NCBI GenBank assembly: GCA_905233275.1
Contig: CAJODR010000004.1
Span: forward strand, 62,001 to 126,000
Reading direction: 5' to 3'
DNA: 64,000 bases
From: an uncultured Bacteroidales bacterium
GTDB taxonomy: Bacteria; Bacteroidota; Bacteroidia; Bacteroidales; UBA932
Shown piece after piece: positions 46,976 to 56,746 of this stretch (position 1 is the stretch's first letter; each line of letters begins with the position of its first letter). The notes under the pieces were generated by a model that saw only the letters and a program-made list of their open reading frames with translations, searched no databases and was not told the DNA's origin. A program made the position numbers and the translations under genes.

Positions 46976-48352
46976 ATGGAACTTCCTTTCGCCGAATCAT
47001 GGAAAATAAAAATGGTGGAGCCTATCCGCCGCAGCACCCTTGAAGAACGCCGCAAATGGCTCGCCGAGGCCCATTACAACGTGTTCCAGCTCAAGGCTGA
47101 GCAGGTCTATATCGACCTCCTGACAGATTCCGGCACCGGCGCCATGTCAGACCGCCAGTGGGCCGAGATGATGCTAGGCGATGAGAGCTACGCGGGCGCG
47201 ACCTCATTCTACAAGCTGGAAGCGATGATCAAGCGGCTCTTCGGGATGAATTACGTCATTCCCACCCACCAGGGCCGTGCAGCTGAGAACGTCCTGTTCT
47301 CATATCTCGTCAAGGAAGGCAACGTCATTCCCGGCAACGCCCATTTCGACACCACAAAGGGCCACATCGAGGCCCGCAAGGCCAAAGCGATCGACGTCAC
47401 CGTGGACGAGGCCAGGGACACCCAGCTCGAGCTTCCCTTCAAAGGTAACGTCAACATCGAGAAGCTCCGCCAGGTCCTCGAAGACAACAAGGGCAACGTC
47501 CCCTTCATGGTCCTCACCGTCACCAACAACACGGTCGGCGGCCAGCCCGTATCCATGGAGAATATCAAAGCGACATGCGCCCTCTGCCATTCGTACGGCG
47601 TACCGGTCGTGATGGACAGCGCCCGCTTTGCGGAAAATGCCTACTTCATCAAGACCCGCGAAAAGGGATTCGCCGACAGGACCATCAAGGAAATCGTCGC
47701 TGAAATGTACACCGACGCCGACGCCATGACCATGTCCGCCAAGAAGGACGCCATCGTCAACATGGGCGGCTTCATCGGCATGAAACGCAAGGAATGGTAC
47801 GAAGGCGCCAAACTCTTCTGCATCCCCTTCGAAGGATACGTCACCTACGGCGGAATGAACGGCCGCGACATGAACGCCCTCGCCCGTGGTCTTGACGAGA
47901 ACACCGAGTTCGACATGCTCCACACCCGCATCCACCAGGTCGCCTATCTCGCGTCAAAACTTGACGAATACGGAATCCCCTACCAGCGTCCTGCCGGCGG
48001 CCACGCCATTTTCGTCGACGCCGACAAGGTCCTCGACCGCATTCCCAAGGAAGAATTCCCGGCCCAGACGCTCACCTGCGAGCTCTACCTCGAGGCCGGT
48101 ATCCGCGCCTGCGAAATCGGCTACATGCTCGCCGACCGCGACCCCGTGACGAGGGAAAACCGCTTCGGCGGCCTCGACCTCGTACGCCTCTGCATCCCCC
48201 GCCGCGTCTACACCGACAACCACATGAACGTCATTGCCGCAGCGATGAAAAACGTCTACGACCGTCGCGAAACAATCACGAGAGGCGTCGCAATAGAATG
48301 GGAAGCGCCCCTCATGCGTCATTTCACAGTTCAGCTGAAGAGATTGGGTTAA
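46976..48352 (+). CDS. tnaA: Tryptophanase
   Basis: 458 aa; IDLLTDSGTGAMSDRQWAEMMLGDESYAG, VVMDSARFAENAYFIK, MSAKKDAIVNMGG; has EIGYMLADRDP where tyrosine phenol-lyase carries ERG (Arg381), so tryptophanase is preferred. Confidence 0.92.
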   Translation: MELPFAESWKIKMVEPIRRSTLEERRKWLAEAHYNVFQLKAEQVYIDLLTDSGTGAMSDRQWAEMMLGDESYAGATSFYKLEAMIKRLFGMNYVIPTHQGRAAENVLFSYLVKEGNVIPGNAHFDTTKGHIEARKAKAIDVTVDEARDTQLELPFKGNVNIEKLRQVLEDNKGNVPFMVLTVTNNTVGGQPVSMENIKATCALCHSYGVPVVMDSARFAENAYFIKTREKGFADRTIKEIVAEMYTDADAMTMSAKKDAIVNMGGFIGMKRKEWYEGAKLFCIPFEGYVTYGGMNGRDMNALARGLDENTEFDMLHTRIHQVAYLASKLDEYGIPYQRPAGGHAIFVDADKVLDRIPKEEFPAQTLTCELYLEAGIRACEIGYMLADRDPVTRENRFGGLDLVRLCIPRRVYTDNHMNVIAAAMKNVYDRRETITRGVAIEWEAPLMRHFTVQLKRLG

Positions 48353-49686
48353 TACGTCTCCAGACGCACTTTTTCGAGAGTAATCATTCCGGGATCGTCT
48401 ATTGCGGTCCCGGTTTTTTCGTAGAAGAATACAGCGTCGCGGACGGTAATACCGTGGATCATTGCGATGGTGCCGGAAGCCTTGATTGCGGTCATGCAGC
48501 CCCTGCAGGTCACCCTCTCGATTAAGATGTCGGTGAAGTCGGGGACGAATGCCGCCGTGGTCGCTGCCACATTGTCCTCATGCCCGGCCGGGCGGTCGGC
48601 GTACGACGTCTCGAAGACAATGGCCTCACCGGCGATATCCGCCATCACTATGTCGCTGATGCGGATGCCGGAAGTCTTCCCTCCCCTCTCGGGAGCACTC
48701 TTGAACCGCAGCCCGGTGTCCGTACCCATGAATGTATTGTGGCGAACGATGACATTTTCTATTCCTCCGGAGAATTCCGACCCGATGACAAAGCCGCCGT
48801 GGGCGTGGAATACCGTATTCCCTTCGATGAGAATATCCTTGCAGGGACCGTCCTTGAGGGCTTTTTCGCCGGCTCCTGCCTTGAGGCAGATGCCGTCATC
48901 GCCCACGTCGACAGTGCAGCCTCGGACAAGGACTCTGCTGCTCTGCATGATGTCGATGCCGTCGCCGTTCTGGGCGTTCCAGGGGCAGCGGACCGTGACG
49001 CCCTCAATCCGCACGTCAGTGCACCTCTGGGGCACGAGGTGGAATTTGGGCGCATTCTGGAGAGTAACGCCTGTCACGCTCACCCTCTCGCAGTCGGTGA
49101 AGCGGACGAGGTGGGTGCGCATCTTCTCCTGAGCCTTGGCGTCGGGAGCGATATCGTCGTAATGCTTGAGTCCGAACGGATACCAGAGCTTGCCGCCGTC
49201 GTCACTCGTGCCGCCGCGGCTGAGGAAGGCCTTCCATTCGACATCGCTCACCTTGCCGCGCTTTACAGCACGCCACCAGGAGCCGTTGCCGTCGATGATT
49301 CCTTCGCCGGAAATACTGACGTCGTGGCTCTTGGAAGCCGTGATACAGGGCTTTACGGAGCCGCTTACGACGAATTCGGACTTGTCCGGAGACATGAGGA
49401 TGACGGCACCCTTCTCGAGGTGGAGGTCAATGCCGCTCTTCAGCACAATCGGCCCCGTGAGATACAGGCCCTCCGGTACGTTGAGATGACCGCCGCCCTG
49501 CTTGGACAGTGCCTCAACGGCCTTGCGGAATGCTTCGGTATTGGACGTAATTCCGTCGGCGACGGCGCCGAATTCGGTCACGGACACCTGCCGGTCGGGA
49601 ATACGGGCAGCTTCTGGATTGATCTCCTGGGACTCTGCTACGGCGCAAGACAGCAGGAGCCCCGCCAATATGGGAAAAATTCGCAT
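48349..49686 (-). CDS. Polygalacturonase-like glycoside hydrolase family 28
   Basis: 445 aa; signal peptide; VTEFGAVADGITSNTEAFRKAVEAL, WNAQNGDGIDIMQSSRVLVRGCTVDVGDDGICLKAG, HGGFVIGSE. Confidence 0.92.
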   Translation of the reverse strand: MRIFPILAGLLLSCAVAESQEINPEAARIPDRQVSVTEFGAVADGITSNTEAFRKAVEALSKQGGGHLNVPEGLYLTGPIVLKSGIDLHLEKGAVILMSPDKSEFVVSGSVKPCITASKSHDVSISGEGIIDGNGSWWRAVKRGKVSDVEWKAFLSRGGTSDDGGKLWYPFGLKHYDDIAPDAKAQEKMRTHLVRFTDCERVSVTGVTLQNAPKFHLVPQRCTDVRIEGVTVRCPWNAQNGDGIDIMQSSRVLVRGCTVDVGDDGICLKAGAGEKALKDGPCKDILIEGNTVFHAHGGFVIGSEFSGGIENVIVRHNTFMGTDTGLRFKSAPERGGKTSGIRISDIVMADIAGEAIVFETSYADRPAGHEDNVAATTAAFVPDFTDILIERVTCRGCMTAIKASGTIAMIHGITVRDAVFFYEKTGTAIDDPGMITLEKVRLETY

Positions 49687-49694
49687 AATATCAA

Positions 49695-50360
49695 TTATTT
49701 AGAGGCAAACACCTTGTCCACCAGCGGATCGGTGAGTTTCATACAGAGCCCTGTCAGCACAGCCTGCAGGAGCGTTCCTTCACGGATTACGTATGTCGTA
49801 CCGTTTCCGGTGAAGAGACCGAAGAAAATGAGCGCAAGGATTACCGTCAGTATCACCAGCGACACATCCAGGATAATCTTTATGAAGCTGAATTTGGCTC
49901 CCGTGCGCTGCGAGACGACCACGAGCGACGAATCGATGGGAAGAAGCCATCCCTCCCCCACCACTTCGAGCCGGATCCCGATTGCCGTCAGGACTATGGC
50001 CACGAAAGTGAGGAGCAGCTGCATCGCATAGTTGGCCGAGGGGGCGTCAATGGCGTTGAACGCCCAGATGAAAAAGTCGATCAGGTATCCGAAAATCAGC
50101 ACCGGAAGCACCTGGATCGCATGTGTCCACTTGAAATCCTTGCGGAGAATGCATGCCTGCAGCACGATGAACGAGATATTGAATATCCAGGTGAACGTGC
50201 CGATGGAAATAGACGTAAACTTAAGTCCGAGGATCGTCGGGACGCAGGAAAGCGGCGCAATTCCGAGATTGGACTTGATGGAAAGTCCGACTCCCAGGGC
50301 CGCTATGATAAGTCCGAGGGTTGAAATGCCGTACCTGACAGCGAAACTTCTTTTAGCCAT
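49695..50360 (-). CDS. YczE/YitT-like membrane protein (DUF6198-like)
   Basis: MAKRSFAVRYGISTLGLIIAALGVGLSIKSNLGIAPLSCVP...; five or so TM segments. Confidence 0.7.
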   Translation of the reverse strand: MAKRSFAVRYGISTLGLIIAALGVGLSIKSNLGIAPLSCVPTILGLKFTSISIGTFTWIFNISFIVLQACILRKDFKWTHAIQVLPVLIFGYLIDFFIWAFNAIDAPSANYAMQLLLTFVAIVLTAIGIRLEVVGEGWLLPIDSSLVVVSQRTGAKFSFIKIILDVSLVILTVILALIFFGLFTGNGTTYVIREGTLLQAVLTGLCMKLTDPLVDKVFASK

Positions 50361-50430
50361 AACCCTGCAAATATACGAAGTTTTCGGTTTTTTTTGTATA
50401 TTTGAAAAATTTCGCCCTCTCGCAGTAACA

Positions 50431-52404
50431 ATGACAAAGCGCCTAGCATTATTCTTCATCCTTCTCGCCGGCTTCCTCCAGCCTGCCATTTCCCAGAACA
50501 ACGATTACGACATCGACGACGAATGCTTCGAGTACATGAAGCAGGCTGAAGCCCTCATCGGCAAGCCTGGATTCGACGAAGTCAACGCAAAACTGCTCGC
50601 AAGAGCCAAGGCCAAGGGCGACGAAAAGGCCAGGACCATCTACTACGTCGAATGCCTCAAGCACGTGACCAAACTCCGCCCCACAATATCCAAGGCAGAG
50701 GATCCCCGGGCATACGAGAAGGAGATGATGCGTATTGAGCAGGACATCAAGAAAGCGTTCGAGGAGCTCAAAATCGTCTCCCGCGAGACAGGTTACAAGC
50801 AGTATTATTACTACGCCTACCAGCTGATTCGAAACTATTATTTCACCACCAGGCAATACAGCGCCATGATGGACACCATCCTGGAGATGCGTGAGACGGC
50901 GATCCAGGAAGGGGACGAATACGGCAAATGGACGAGCGACAAGTACATGGTGTCAATGTACCTCACATACGACGACTACAAGAATGCCAAGCGGTACCTG
51001 AAGGAAGTCCTCGGAATATACGAGACCTCTGAAGATGAAACCATCCTGCGGCAGTCTGTCGCTCATACATATCTGGAATATGCTGAATGCTTCCCCGTCG
51101 GGAGCGACTCGATGAGGCTCATGGTCGCAAAGTCAGCAGAAGTAAACAACGGCCTCCAGGACACCTGCCGCCGCAATGTGTACCTCGCGACATTCGCCCT
51201 GCTAGACAGGGACATCAAATCATATAAGTCATATCGTGACGAAGCCCTTTCCAGCCAATACGGCTCCGTCGTCTCCAAAACGCTGCCGATCTATTTCAAA
51301 CTCACCGACGCGGTAGTCGACGGAAGTATCGACAAATACGGCAGCTCACTTGATTCCCTGTCCACTCACAAGGAGATTATGATGCTGGAGGCGGTAGCCG
51401 AGAGCTGGGGGCACAACAAGACCGCCCTCATCCTGGAGAAAGCCCTGACCGGCAGGATGCGCGAGAAAATCGCCAATCTCAACGAGATCAGTCTCTCCGA
51501 ATTGGAAGTCCAGTACGGCAACAAAGTCCTTCAGGCAGAGCTGGACGCTTCAGAGGAAAGAGTCGAGAGAATCACGAGGATTCTGATCATTCTCGGCGCC
51601 GTCATACTTGCCGGCCTCATAGTATTCCTCCTGCTGCATATCCGGACACTCCGCCGCGCCAAACGCAATGACGAAAAACGCATCACCGAGCTCACAGAAG
51701 CCAACGAGCGCGTACGCTTCGCCAATGAAGCCAAGACCAGGTTCATCCAGAACATGACCCACGAAGTCAGGACTCCGCTCAACGCAATCACCGGATTCTC
51801 GCAGCTCCTGTCGCTCCCGGACGGCATGTTCTCGGAAGAGGAAAAAGCTGAATTCTCCAGCCACGTCATGACCAATACGAAGATGCTGACGATGCTTCTC
51901 GACGACATCCTCCATTCGTCCGACATGGACTCGGGGACATACTCGATTACCATCGAAGAATGCGAATGCGGCGCAATCTGCCATGAATCCATCAGCTCCG
52001 CAGAGCACCGTCTGCAGCCGGGCGTCCAGATTCATTTCCTTCCCGAAATCGAGCTCCCGTTCACTCTGAAGACCGATCCTCTCCGCGTGCAGCAGGTCCT
52101 GACCAATCTCCTTACCAACGCCTGCAAGCATACGCCTTCCGGCGAAATCAGGCTTGGATGCTCGCTGAGCGAGGATAAGGAAATGCTGACATTCACCATC
52201 GAAGACACCGGCTCGGGTATTCCGGCCGAGGATGCCGAGCGCATATTCGACCGCTTCGTCAAGCTCAACGATTTCGTCCAGGGCACCGGCCTCGGACTCA
52301 GCATCTGCCGCGACATCACGACGCGCCTGGGCGGAAAAATATACCTGGACACCTCTTATACCGGAGGGTCCAGGTTTGTATTCTCAATTCCTGTAAAGAA
52401 ATAG
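50431..52404 (+). CDS. Sensor histidine kinase with TPR-like periplasmic region
   Basis: Signal peptide, TM, HisKA FIQNMTHEVRTPLNAITGFSQLL, HATPase TNLLTNACKHTPSGEI..EDTGSGIPAED..GTGLGLSICR; true start at 50431, not 50032. Confidence 0.92.
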   Translation: MTKRLALFFILLAGFLQPAISQNNDYDIDDECFEYMKQAEALIGKPGFDEVNAKLLARAKAKGDEKARTIYYVECLKHVTKLRPTISKAEDPRAYEKEMMRIEQDIKKAFEELKIVSRETGYKQYYYYAYQLIRNYYFTTRQYSAMMDTILEMRETAIQEGDEYGKWTSDKYMVSMYLTYDDYKNAKRYLKEVLGIYETSEDETILRQSVAHTYLEYAECFPVGSDSMRLMVAKSAEVNNGLQDTCRRNVYLATFALLDRDIKSYKSYRDEALSSQYGSVVSKTLPIYFKLTDAVVDGSIDKYGSSLDSLSTHKEIMMLEAVAESWGHNKTALILEKALTGRMREKIANLNEISLSELEVQYGNKVLQAELDASEERVERITRILIILGAVILAGLIVFLLLHIRTLRRAKRNDEKRITELTEANERVRFANEAKTRFIQNMTHEVRTPLNAITGFSQLLSLPDGMFSEEEKAEFSSHVMTNTKMLTMLLDDILHSSDMDSGTYSITIEECECGAICHESISSAEHRLQPGVQIHFLPEIELPFTLKTDPLRVQQVLTNLLTNACKHTPSGEIRLGCSLSEDKEMLTFTIEDTGSGIPAEDAERIFDRFVKLNDFVQGTGLGLSICRDITTRLGGKIYLDTSYTGGSRFVFSIPVKK

Positions 52405-53682: not shown

Positions 53683-56658
53683 TTATTCGTTGGTAAACCT
53701 GAGGTCAACGGGAATCTTTTTCTTGGCTATCATTTCTATGTCAGCCTTCAAGTCGTCGGACACGACGGAATATGCAGAGGTGAACTCTTTGGCCGCGTCC
53801 TTGTCTCCGACAGCCTGGAGCTCCATGACCTTGGCCATGATGCTCTCAACATCAGGCATATATGCATCGAAATCAATGGAATAGCCCTGATTGCCGGAGA
53901 GCTTGGTAATGGCTCCGCTCTGGACCAGGTTGTTGAGAATGATGACATTGGCCCGTCCTGTGGCATCGACTGTGCCGAAGCGTGAAGAACGAAGGAGACT
54001 GGCGGTGAAGGTGGTGATGAGATTCTTCTTCTGGATGAGTCCGGTCAGTTTATGCTCATCAAGCATCTTGCATGCGAGCCAGAGGCCCATGACATTGTCC
54101 TTAACCTTCTCGACGGTAAGAGCCTCTTCGCCCAGGGCTTCCGTAACGGTCTGGCCGGACAGGGTCTCCCTGACGCCAAGGCCATGTGCGATCTCACGGA
54201 AAGCGATATTCCAGTAGAATGCATCAGGATCGAGATAACCGCGGAAATTCTGCTCGAGTAGCAGCTGGCCGACAGGATACACCGTGTGATGGAATTTCTC
54301 TGTGATTACGTTCTGGAAGAGGATGGTCTTGCTTCCCTGTACATCACCCGAGGCCGGGAGGTTGATTGCGACCACCTTGTAACCGGCATTCGCATTTCCG
54401 GCATATTCGAGAGCGTCGGCAGAAACAACATTGACAACGCCGGGATTGAAACGCTTGAATTCTTCCTTGACAGGCAGGGACATCTGCAGTTCAGGAATCT
54501 CTTCGCTGATATTCTTGAGGAGTTCGCTGCGGTACATGTCGTTGAGGAGAACGAATGCGCCGTAGGAAGCCTTGATACCGTAGAGATTGTCGTCGTTGTA
54601 CGAGACCGGACCGATAATGAGGTCCATACGGCTGTCGTCAACGGAAAGCCATGCCGCATCAGAAGCATGATAGTCATCGCTGTTGAGGCCTTCGATTCTC
54701 TCAAGCAAATAGTTACGTACGCTCTCCTTGATGGTGGTATCGGCTGCAGACTTGAGATAACCGGCAATCTTGTCGATATTCTCCTTGTAGGCTTCGTGAT
54801 ACCATACGGTCTTGAGGGAGCGGTCGGAATCCCTGACGATCAGGGTGTAAGGACTGAGCTTAGCGGGGTCGTCGAAGTCTTCGAATTCCTGCGCTGTCAT
54901 GTCCTCGGGATAGAAGCGTGCTCCTGCGGGCCTGTCACCGATGCCGTCGATGAAGGACTTGCCGGTCACGCGGTCCCAAGGGCCGTAATTGATGAGGGCG
55001 TAATCAGCGAGATCGGGATCAAGACCCTTGAGGAGGTTGTCCTTGTCACCGTAGTTCTGCTTCCAGTAAATGTTGTCGATTTCATCGGCAGCGAGGGAGT
55101 ACAAGCGGAGGCATTCCTTGCCATTGTCTGTCAGGGTCTCGGCGGATGAAGGGACGGAGAGTTTAACCTCGACGTAGTTTTCGGAACGTGTAACGTGCTC
55201 CTCAGCGGTACCCTCGAAGGGGAATATCTTCGTAAGCCAGAAGAATCCGAGGATGAAACCAATGATACCGATTATGATACCGGTCTTGGCCATGTCCTTG
55301 GTCTCGACGAGTCCGGTGGAAGATGCGATGGCATTCGGAGGCGTGGATATAGGGAAGAGCATCGCTATCGAGGCGCAAACCGCGATGAACGAAATCATGG
55401 CATGAGTGCCGCCCAGGCCGACGAATGATGCATTATTGGCAGCTGCCGGATCAGCCATGCCCTCCGCCACGACGATGAGGATCGGAATAAGGAGAGCGGC
55501 TGTGGCACTGTTGGAAATGAAGTTGGAGAGGAAGTAGCACACCAGGCCCGCGATGACAAGCACCACGACGACGCTCATCGAGCCGAACGGAATGGCGTTG
55601 ATGAGAACTTTTGCAAGGCCGGTGCCCTGAAGGCAGGTACCTAAGGCGAATCCGCCGGCGACGAGCCAGAGGACCGTCCAGTTGATTTCCTTGATATCTT
55701 CCTTGCCGAAAATACCGGTCGCGGTGAATACGCCGAGCGGAATAAGAGCGACTACGTTGGAATTGATCCCTGTAATCTGCTCGGTGGCCCACAGGAGAAT
55801 GGTGCCGATGAATGTAATCCACACTACATATGTCTTCCAGTCAGATTTGCGTTTGCTGGCAGGGATTTCGAGGACCACTTCCTTTGACTTGAAGGGGAAG
55901 AATAGCTGCAGCAGCAACCATGCAACGACAAGCATCACAAGGACGAACGGAATCATCCTTACAGCCCATTCCATGAAAGAGACTTCATAACCGGCCTCTG
56001 CGAGGAATTTGACCGCAGTAGCATTGGGAGGAGTGCCGATAGGGGTACCGATGCCGCCGAGGTTGGCAGCAATCGGGATAGCCAGGGCGAGGCCGATCTT
56101 TCCTTTGTCATCCTTGGGGAGCACTGCGAGAACCGGGGCGAGGAATGCGAGCATCATCGCAGCAGTAGCAGTGTTGGACATGAACATCGAGAAGACGGCG
56201 ATCACGATAAGGAATCCGAGCAGAACCATCTTCGGCCTGGTACCGAAAGGCTTCAGGAGGACTCTGGCGAGAGTCACGTCCAGACCGTATTTCTCGGCCA
56301 TGATAGCAAGGACGAATCCGCCGAGGAAGAGCATGACCACAGGGTCAGCGAAGGCGGACATCAGGGATTTGTAGTTGACGAGTTCGCCGTATTTGGCGTC
56401 ACACAGGAATCCGAGTCCCTTGTCCGACACCGTCAGGAGGGCGAATACAATTACTAACAGGGATGTCGTCCAGTTGGGGATGATTTCAAACATCCACATG
56501 AGGGCGGCAAACACAAAGAGGGCGATAACCCTCTGCTGAACGACTGTCAGTCCCTCTATGCCGAAAAAGCTGACGGGGACTGCAAGAAGGAAGGCTGTGA
56601 CGATGAGCACAAGAGGCAGCAGCACCACATACTTCGCACTTACTTTTTTGGTTGCCAT
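53683..56658 (-). CDS. SLC13/DASS-family sodium-coupled anion transporter fused to an M49-like (dipeptidyl-peptidase III-like) domain with altered zinc ligands
   Basis: 991 aa. N-terminal about 490 aa: MSNTATAAMMLAFLAPVLAVLP, GGIGTPIGTPPN, SNFISNSATAALLIPI, FPISTPPNAIA. C-terminal about 500 aa: INYGPWDRVTGKSFIDGIGDRPAGARFYPEDM, GNANAGYKVVAINLP, FREIAHGLG, VEKVKDNVMGLW. Confidence 0.85.
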   Translation of the reverse strand: MATKKVSAKYVVLLPLVLIVTAFLLAVPVSFFGIEGLTVVQQRVIALFVFAALMWMFEIIPNWTTSLLVIVFALLTVSDKGLGFLCDAKYGELVNYKSLMSAFADPVVMLFLGGFVLAIMAEKYGLDVTLARVLLKPFGTRPKMVLLGFLIVIAVFSMFMSNTATAAMMLAFLAPVLAVLPKDDKGKIGLALAIPIAANLGGIGTPIGTPPNATAVKFLAEAGYEVSFMEWAVRMIPFVLVMLVVAWLLLQLFFPFKSKEVVLEIPASKRKSDWKTYVVWITFIGTILLWATEQITGINSNVVALIPLGVFTATGIFGKEDIKEINWTVLWLVAGGFALGTCLQGTGLAKVLINAIPFGSMSVVVVLVIAGLVCYFLSNFISNSATAALLIPILIVVAEGMADPAAANNASFVGLGGTHAMISFIAVCASIAMLFPISTPPNAIASSTGLVETKDMAKTGIIIGIIGFILGFFWLTKIFPFEGTAEEHVTRSENYVEVKLSVPSSAETLTDNGKECLRLYSLAADEIDNIYWKQNYGDKDNLLKGLDPDLADYALINYGPWDRVTGKSFIDGIGDRPAGARFYPEDMTAQEFEDFDDPAKLSPYTLIVRDSDRSLKTVWYHEAYKENIDKIAGYLKSAADTTIKESVRNYLLERIEGLNSDDYHASDAAWLSVDDSRMDLIIGPVSYNDDNLYGIKASYGAFVLLNDMYRSELLKNISEEIPELQMSLPVKEEFKRFNPGVVNVVSADALEYAGNANAGYKVVAINLPASGDVQGSKTILFQNVITEKFHHTVYPVGQLLLEQNFRGYLDPDAFYWNIAFREIAHGLGVRETLSGQTVTEALGEEALTVEKVKDNVMGLWLACKMLDEHKLTGLIQKKNLITTFTASLLRSSRFGTVDATGRANVIILNNLVQSGAITKLSGNQGYSIDFDAYMPDVESIMAKVMELQAVGDKDAAKEFTSAYSVVSDDLKADIEMIAKKKIPVDLRFTNE

Positions 56659-56746
56659 TGTATAGTTTGGTTAATATTATCCTGTTTGGATACAGTCTGC
56701 AAAGTTAACCAAACTTTGAGTATTTAGCAAGCTAAACGGCGACTTT

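Follow-up and report, generated by a model that had tools for sequence, protein, structure and literature searches.

The fusion gene and its two halves

The window, by which we mean the whole 64,000-nucleotide stretch analyzed from a contig of an uncultured Bacteroidales bacterium, carries on its minus strand a gene in which a DASS (SLC13-type) carrier is joined to a domain related to the M49 peptidases of the DPP III type. The features of this locus are listed in Table 1. The first-pass annotation, made from the DNA letters, had described one uninterrupted frame of 991 codons with a DASS-like half bearing two SNT/SNS-type motifs followed by an M49-like half, and each of these points was borne out. 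Both families were matched above cut-off in the profile search: TIGR00785 (DASS) matched residues 42-470 with 239.9 bits against a cut-off of 198.6, and PF03571 (Peptidase_M49) gave a weak match to residues 623-828, with 25.8 bits against a cut-off of 21.

Table 1. Positions in the window of the fusion gene, its parts and residues, and the adjoining features.
Feature	Position	Strand	Remarks
Whole fusion gene	53683..56658	(-)	991 codons plus stop; single uninterrupted ORF
DASS/SLC13-type carrier, residues 1-480	55219..56658	(-)	TIGR00785, PF03600, PF00939, VcINDY homology
SNT motif of first half-repeat, residues 161-163	56170..56178	(-)	Aligned with VcINDY
SNS motif of second half-repeat, residues 382-384	55507..55515	(-)	SNT in VcINDY
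Linker, residues 481-504	55147..55218	(-)	After the last transmembrane helix
Pseudo-M49 (DPP III-like) domain, residues 505-991	53683..55146	(-)	6eom, 5zum, PF03571
N688 (Caldithrix Tyr242; human Tyr318)	54595..54597	(-)	Tyr242 lost in 88/88 Arg-type sequences
A769 (Caldithrix Asn324, peptide N-terminus binding)	54352..54354	(-)	Asn324 lost in 88/88 Arg-type sequences
Former HExxH, now R821-E822-I-A-H825	54184..54198	(-)	Reads F-R-E-I-A-H at 820-825
Former EExKAD, now E850-K851-V-K853-D-N855	54094..54111	(-)	Ligand Glu replaced
T900 (Caldithrix His460)	53959..53961	(-)	His460 lost in 88/88 Arg-type sequences
Candidate -7 element TAACTTTG	56700..56707	(-)	Fits TAnnTTTG; lies about 40 bases upstream of the start codon
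Downstream gene, presumed outer-membrane barrel of 418 aa	52417..53673	(-)	9 bases from the fusion; conserved beside DASS

The VcINDY structures 4f35 and 5ul7 matched the carrier half at an E value of about 6e-33. Alignment with VcINDY placed both of the paired SN(T/S) substrate and sodium motifs of DASS carriers, and GTPPN and STPPN motifs were also present, so that the fusion, like VcINDY, contains a complete carrier domain. It differs from VcINDY in its second motif, which is SNS and not SNT, and in roughly 500 additional, most likely periplasmic residues, whose counterpart in most relatives is a separate lipoprotein. These residues aligned over their full length with two crystallized bacterial DPP III enzymes, that of Caldithrix (6eom, E=5e-64), which is the closest solved relative, and that of Corallococcus (5zum, E=1e-56), and homology to both runs across the whole pseudo-M49 domain. 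Both enzymes have predicted signal peptides as well (PMC5805324, PMC9820243). AlphaFold2 models were too poor to use, with a pLDDT of 38.7 for the M49 domain (4 rows) and 36.3 for the full chain (7 rows).

The fusion is present as one copy in its genome, which also encodes a canonical DPP III as a separate lipoprotein, its motifs reading HECLGH and EEARAD. The candidate promoter element upstream of the gene conforms to the Bacteroidales -7 consensus. Elsewhere in the window, a tryptophanase gene (46976-48352; NF053783 TnaA, 910.8 bits against a cut-off of 750) has a 4-base overlap with the end of a GH28-like gene on the other strand (48349-49686), and positions 50032-52404 encode a sensor histidine kinase whose long N-terminal region presumably consists of tetratricopeptide repeats and whose listed TTG start is probably too far upstream.

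The former zinc site

Zinc in Caldithrix DPP III is held by His379, His383 and Glu412 (PMC5805324). The window protein has R821, H825 and K851 at these positions, and two of the three ligands are thus replaced. The motifs of M49 membership, HExxH or HExxGH and EEx(K/R)A(D/E) with its Glu ligand, are both absent from the fusion. The changes from HExxH to REIAH and from EExKAD to EKVKDN that had been noted earlier were found at residues 820-825 and 850-855, and the replaced ligands support the associated claim of a presumably zinc-dead M49 domain fused to a DASS carrier.

Residues were tallied in Caldithrix DPP III numbering across 88 sequences, termed Arg-type, in which the first zinc-binding His is replaced. 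Position 379 was Arg in all 88, and Glu380, Asn321, Glu411, Lys414 and Arg453 were kept in every member. Glu240 was kept in 78 of the 88, being Ser in the window protein, and Asp416 was changed to Asn in 75. Lysine replaced Glu412 in 36 members and His383 in 25, nearly all of them in the branch linked to DASS carriers, while many members linked to AspT-type carriers (described below) retained both His383 and Glu412. Counting the side chains of positions 379, 383 and 412 only, the net charge was -1 in all intact domains and +2 or +3 in 33 of the 56 DASS-linked or fused domains. Compared with bacterial DPP III, the first zinc His is always Arg in this clade, the third ligand is often Lys, and Tyr242, Asn324 and His460 are lost in all 88 members.

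Between fused pairs, dN/dS was 0.08-0.16 for the M49 half and 0.04-0.08 for the DASS half, and the pseudo-M49 domain evolves under purifying selection. Because both the replacement Arg and the cleft residues are invariant, the alignment argues for the acquisition of a new function and not for decay.

Unfused relatives and the origin of the fusion

A sample of 128 M49 domains from 122 loci was assembled, and neighboring genes were sought by tblastn. Forty of the domains were zinc-intact (HE..H / EEKAD) and the remaining 88 were Arg-type. Among the latter, 9 were fused to DASS, 47 were adjacent to a DASS gene, 23 were adjacent to an AspT-type gene, and 9 had neither neighbor. A conserved pairing of a carrier with an exported soluble partner was accordingly present for 79 of 88 Arg-type domains (56 DASS, 23 AspT-type) as compared with 0 of 40 zinc-intact ones; for loci L181-L220, which were mostly taken in list order, the counts were 30/36 and 0/5. 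A Fisher test on linkage gave p=8e-25, although this statistic ignores relatedness and carries little weight. Sampling was even within groups but the sequences are strongly related, and carrier linkage cannot be counted as a series of independent events since the His-to-Arg change happened once.

The AspT-type neighbors matched Asp-Al_Ex (PF06826) and, in NCBIfam, the YidE/YbjL duplication domain and the YidE/AspT family. AspT-type carriers are unrelated to DASS and, in contrast to DASS, were never fused to pseudo-M49 in the sample. A division of the clade into DASS-linked and orphan members was dropped when the neighbors of the orphans proved to be mostly AspT-type carriers. A search of one AspT paper found no accessory lipoprotein for this family. 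Two Arg-type genes had other membrane-protein neighbors: one lies 28 bases after an aquaporin/glycerol-facilitator-like gene, possibly encoding a third kind of membrane partner, that in turn follows a glycerol-kinase-like gene (L200:1-5375), and one lies 62 bases after a gene resembling a voltage-gated ion channel (L215:6562-8172). Zinc-intact M49 genes of the genus commonly follow a triosephosphate isomerase gene (22 loci, L161-L183). One further M49 match falls within an open frame of 914 residues, against the usual 550, and is perhaps another M49 fusion (G1236:C11:48223-49695).

In most relatives the dead M49 is a separate periplasmic lipoprotein gene adjoining DASS, and the fused form is the minority. 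Across the 64 loci compared, a recurrent gene order was gdhA, pseudo-M49, DASS and an outer-membrane protein. In L031-L033, for example, an M49-like lipoprotein of 532-546 aa, also zinc-dead (REIAK, EKAKSN), is followed after 12 bases by a DASS gene of 481 aa, a porin and a homologue of the gene downstream of the fusion in the window. Some homologues of this downstream barrel matched DcaP, a dicarboxylic-acid porin, below the Pfam cut-off (19.4 against 27), which is a hint; Acinetobacter requires the DcaP family to use carboxylic acids (PMC12338516). A second, paralogous cluster consists of a DASS gene (501 aa, about 52% identical) between two pseudo-M49 genes, and was seen at L102 (L102:5250-9999), L104-L108, L110 and L135; the flanking lipoproteins are of two different subtypes. 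At L126:4677-8897 (genome G008), gdhA, a DASS gene (60% identical) and a barrel gene occur without M49 between them, and a zinc-intact M49 gene lies elsewhere in the genome (L125). This kind of DASS carrier can thus dispense with M49.

When the separate lipoproteins were aligned with the fusion, homology started directly after the lipid-anchored Cys, and the linker of the fusion aligned with the segment that follows this Cys in unfused orthologues; by this alignment, the carrier takes the place of the lipid anchor. A lipobox signal peptide was found automatically in 69 of the 79 unfused Arg-type proteins, and most of the printed misses were also lipoprotein-like. The residues after the Cys are basic and not acidic, and since the Bacteroides surface-export signal consists of acidic residues after the lipoprotein Cys, a periplasmic position is favored over a surface one. 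In the description of VcINDY, its final residues are grouped with the extracellular surface (PMC7553777). Together with the lipoprotein signals of the orthologues and the lack of any hydrophobic or transmembrane segment after residue 481, this makes it most likely that the fused M49 domain is periplasmic, as had been proposed from the window sequence.

In the M49 tree a branch with support of 100 separates the Arg-type sequences from all others. As the tree places it, the His-to-Arg change is a single event that preceded any fusion and took place in a clade of separate lipoproteins. The idea that the Arg and Lys substitutions accompany fusion, which the first-pass annotation had put forward for checking, was refuted by the zinc-site alignment: Arg is found throughout the unfused clade and the change of Glu to Lys is also common there, which rules out these changes as a companion of fusion. 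DASS-linked and AspT-linked members are interleaved in the tree, which points to several exchanges of carrier partner. In a class-wide scan of 31 loci, 2 of which were the canonical DPP III of the window's own genome, the motif read HEVAH in every homologue where it could be located (27 of 29); within the sample, Arg-type domains are therefore confined to the window's genus and one other family (L121).

At the level of the order (295 genomes), the full fusion was found only in the window's own genome. The family-level search (399 genomes) added six genomes with full-length copies and one with a copy cut by a contig end (G646), and the genus-level search added one more (G786). The total is nine genomes including that of the window, all of its genus, the eight others comprising seven full-length copies and the partial copy of G646. 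Since the same open frame occurs in these eight other genomes, a mutation of one strain or a frameshift artefact is ruled out. The fused domains formed two clades in the M49 tree, and an AU test against a single clade gave p=0.026, whereas in the DASS tree a single clade of fusions was not rejected (AU p=0.53); two separate fusions are likely on these trees. Simple loss of a stop codon was rejected as the route of fusion because the separate M49 gene lies upstream of DASS and the fused domain is C-terminal, so that gene order is the opposite of domain order.

Proposed role and competing explanations

At the level of sequence, these comparisons demonstrate the descent of the domain from zinc DPP III-like enzymes, its loss of catalytic residues, its conservation, its export, its linkage to carriers and its fusion. 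For its role, we consider it an evenly balanced possibility that the gene is a DASS carrier fused to its usually separate partner, a pseudo-DPP III that captures a small anion and delivers it to, or gates, the carrier. The best reading, by analogy, is that this role would resemble that of TRAP binding proteins while the origin does not. TRAP transporters of the SiaPQM type combine a sodium-coupled elevator carrier with a two-domain Venus-flytrap binding protein, SiaP, which has a conserved carboxylate-binding Arg, and VcINDY was the template on which the TRAP substrate site was initially modelled (PMC11801797). The likeness is a functional comparison in which Arg821 would hold a carboxylate as the Arg of SiaP does. 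The pseudo-M49 partner differs in being peptidase-derived, with no known homology to TRAP binding proteins, and delivery by it is a proposal.

As we envisage it, the cleft between the two lobes, known to close on its ligand in DPP III, would capture a C4-dicarboxylate or aspartate/glutamate, the carboxylate being held where zinc sat by Arg821, joined in many members by Lys at positions that once bound the metal. The domain would then deliver the substrate to the outer face of the carrier, or gate that face, and the carrier would move it by a sodium-coupled elevator mechanism. The adjacent DcaP-like barrel may pass the substrate across the outer membrane, and fusion would swap the lipid anchor for the carrier, fixing both parts at 1:1. 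The large domain motion by which DPP III closes over its ligands (PMC4824452, PMC5805324) would be apt for a binding protein. Di- and tricarboxylates are imported by DASS carriers (PMC7553777), and relatives of AspT move aspartate, succinate or glutamate, exporters of the latter two being among the members of the family (PMC9527358). These substrates, the DcaP-like barrel and the frequent presence of gdhA beside pseudo-M49/DASS loci suggest dicarboxylates or acidic amino acids as the ligand. The argument from positive charge holds mainly for the DASS branch, since many AspT-linked members keep His383 and Glu412.

The same gene linkage and fusion would also fit a regulatory or assembly partner that gates, stabilizes or senses for the carrier without handing over substrate. 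DASS and AspT carriers are known to work without a binding protein, a few Arg-type members (9 of 88) lack an adjoining carrier, and the L126 relative has no M49 partner, all of which speaks for such a role; we nevertheless regard it as rather unlikely, as the invariance of Glu380, Asn321, Glu411, Lys414 and Arg453 in all 88 members goes beyond the needs of a mere scaffold. That the DPP III cleft of the domain has remained a peptide-binding site, coupling capture or sensing of peptides to the carrier, was a role suggested in the first-pass annotation but seems improbable. Inactive human DPP III (E451A) does bind peptides with large domain closure (PMC4824452), and of the residues that hold the peptide N-terminus in the Caldithrix enzyme Glu240 (78 of 88) and Asn321 (88 of 88) are kept, but Tyr242 and Asn324 are lost throughout and Glu240 is Ser in the window protein, in which amine binding has possibly been lost. 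With these peptide-binding residues gone, a small anion or acidic amino acid looks a likelier ligand than a peptide. Neither DASS nor AspT carriers, moreover, are known to move peptides.

The invariance of Glu380, Glu411 and Lys414 could also reflect a novel enzyme that works without metal, or with a different metal site, and sets substrate free for the carrier. We think this quite improbable, given that Arg, present at 379 throughout, makes the site ill suited to a metal and that Tyr242 and His460 are gone. That the fusion is accidental, is decaying or arose from misassembly is exceedingly improbable: although it is a minority state in the genus and some fused members lie on long branches, it occurs in nine genomes, arose probably twice, and has dN/dS well below 1 in both halves.

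A wider proposal, which we hold tentatively and with somewhat less than even confidence, is that a dead DPP III became a dedicated binding subunit for both DASS and AspT carriers, with Arg and Lys in place of zinc holding a carboxylate, and was later fused to DASS, probably twice, giving a second and independently evolved counterpart of the TRAP binding proteins. In the part of the literature covered, which is weak evidence, searches for M49 with DASS, for a pseudopeptidase with a periplasmic transporter, and for SLC13/VcINDY with a substrate-binding protein returned no such arrangement. If true, dependence on binding proteins, which is not known for DASS or AspT-type carriers, would reach both families in these gut bacteria, through a partner that was once a peptidase and that came to bind ligand where it had bound metal. 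The fused form would offer a single-chain 1:1 complex for studying how a periplasmic domain communicates with an elevator carrier, and genes labelled peptidase M49 in these genomes would often not encode peptidases.
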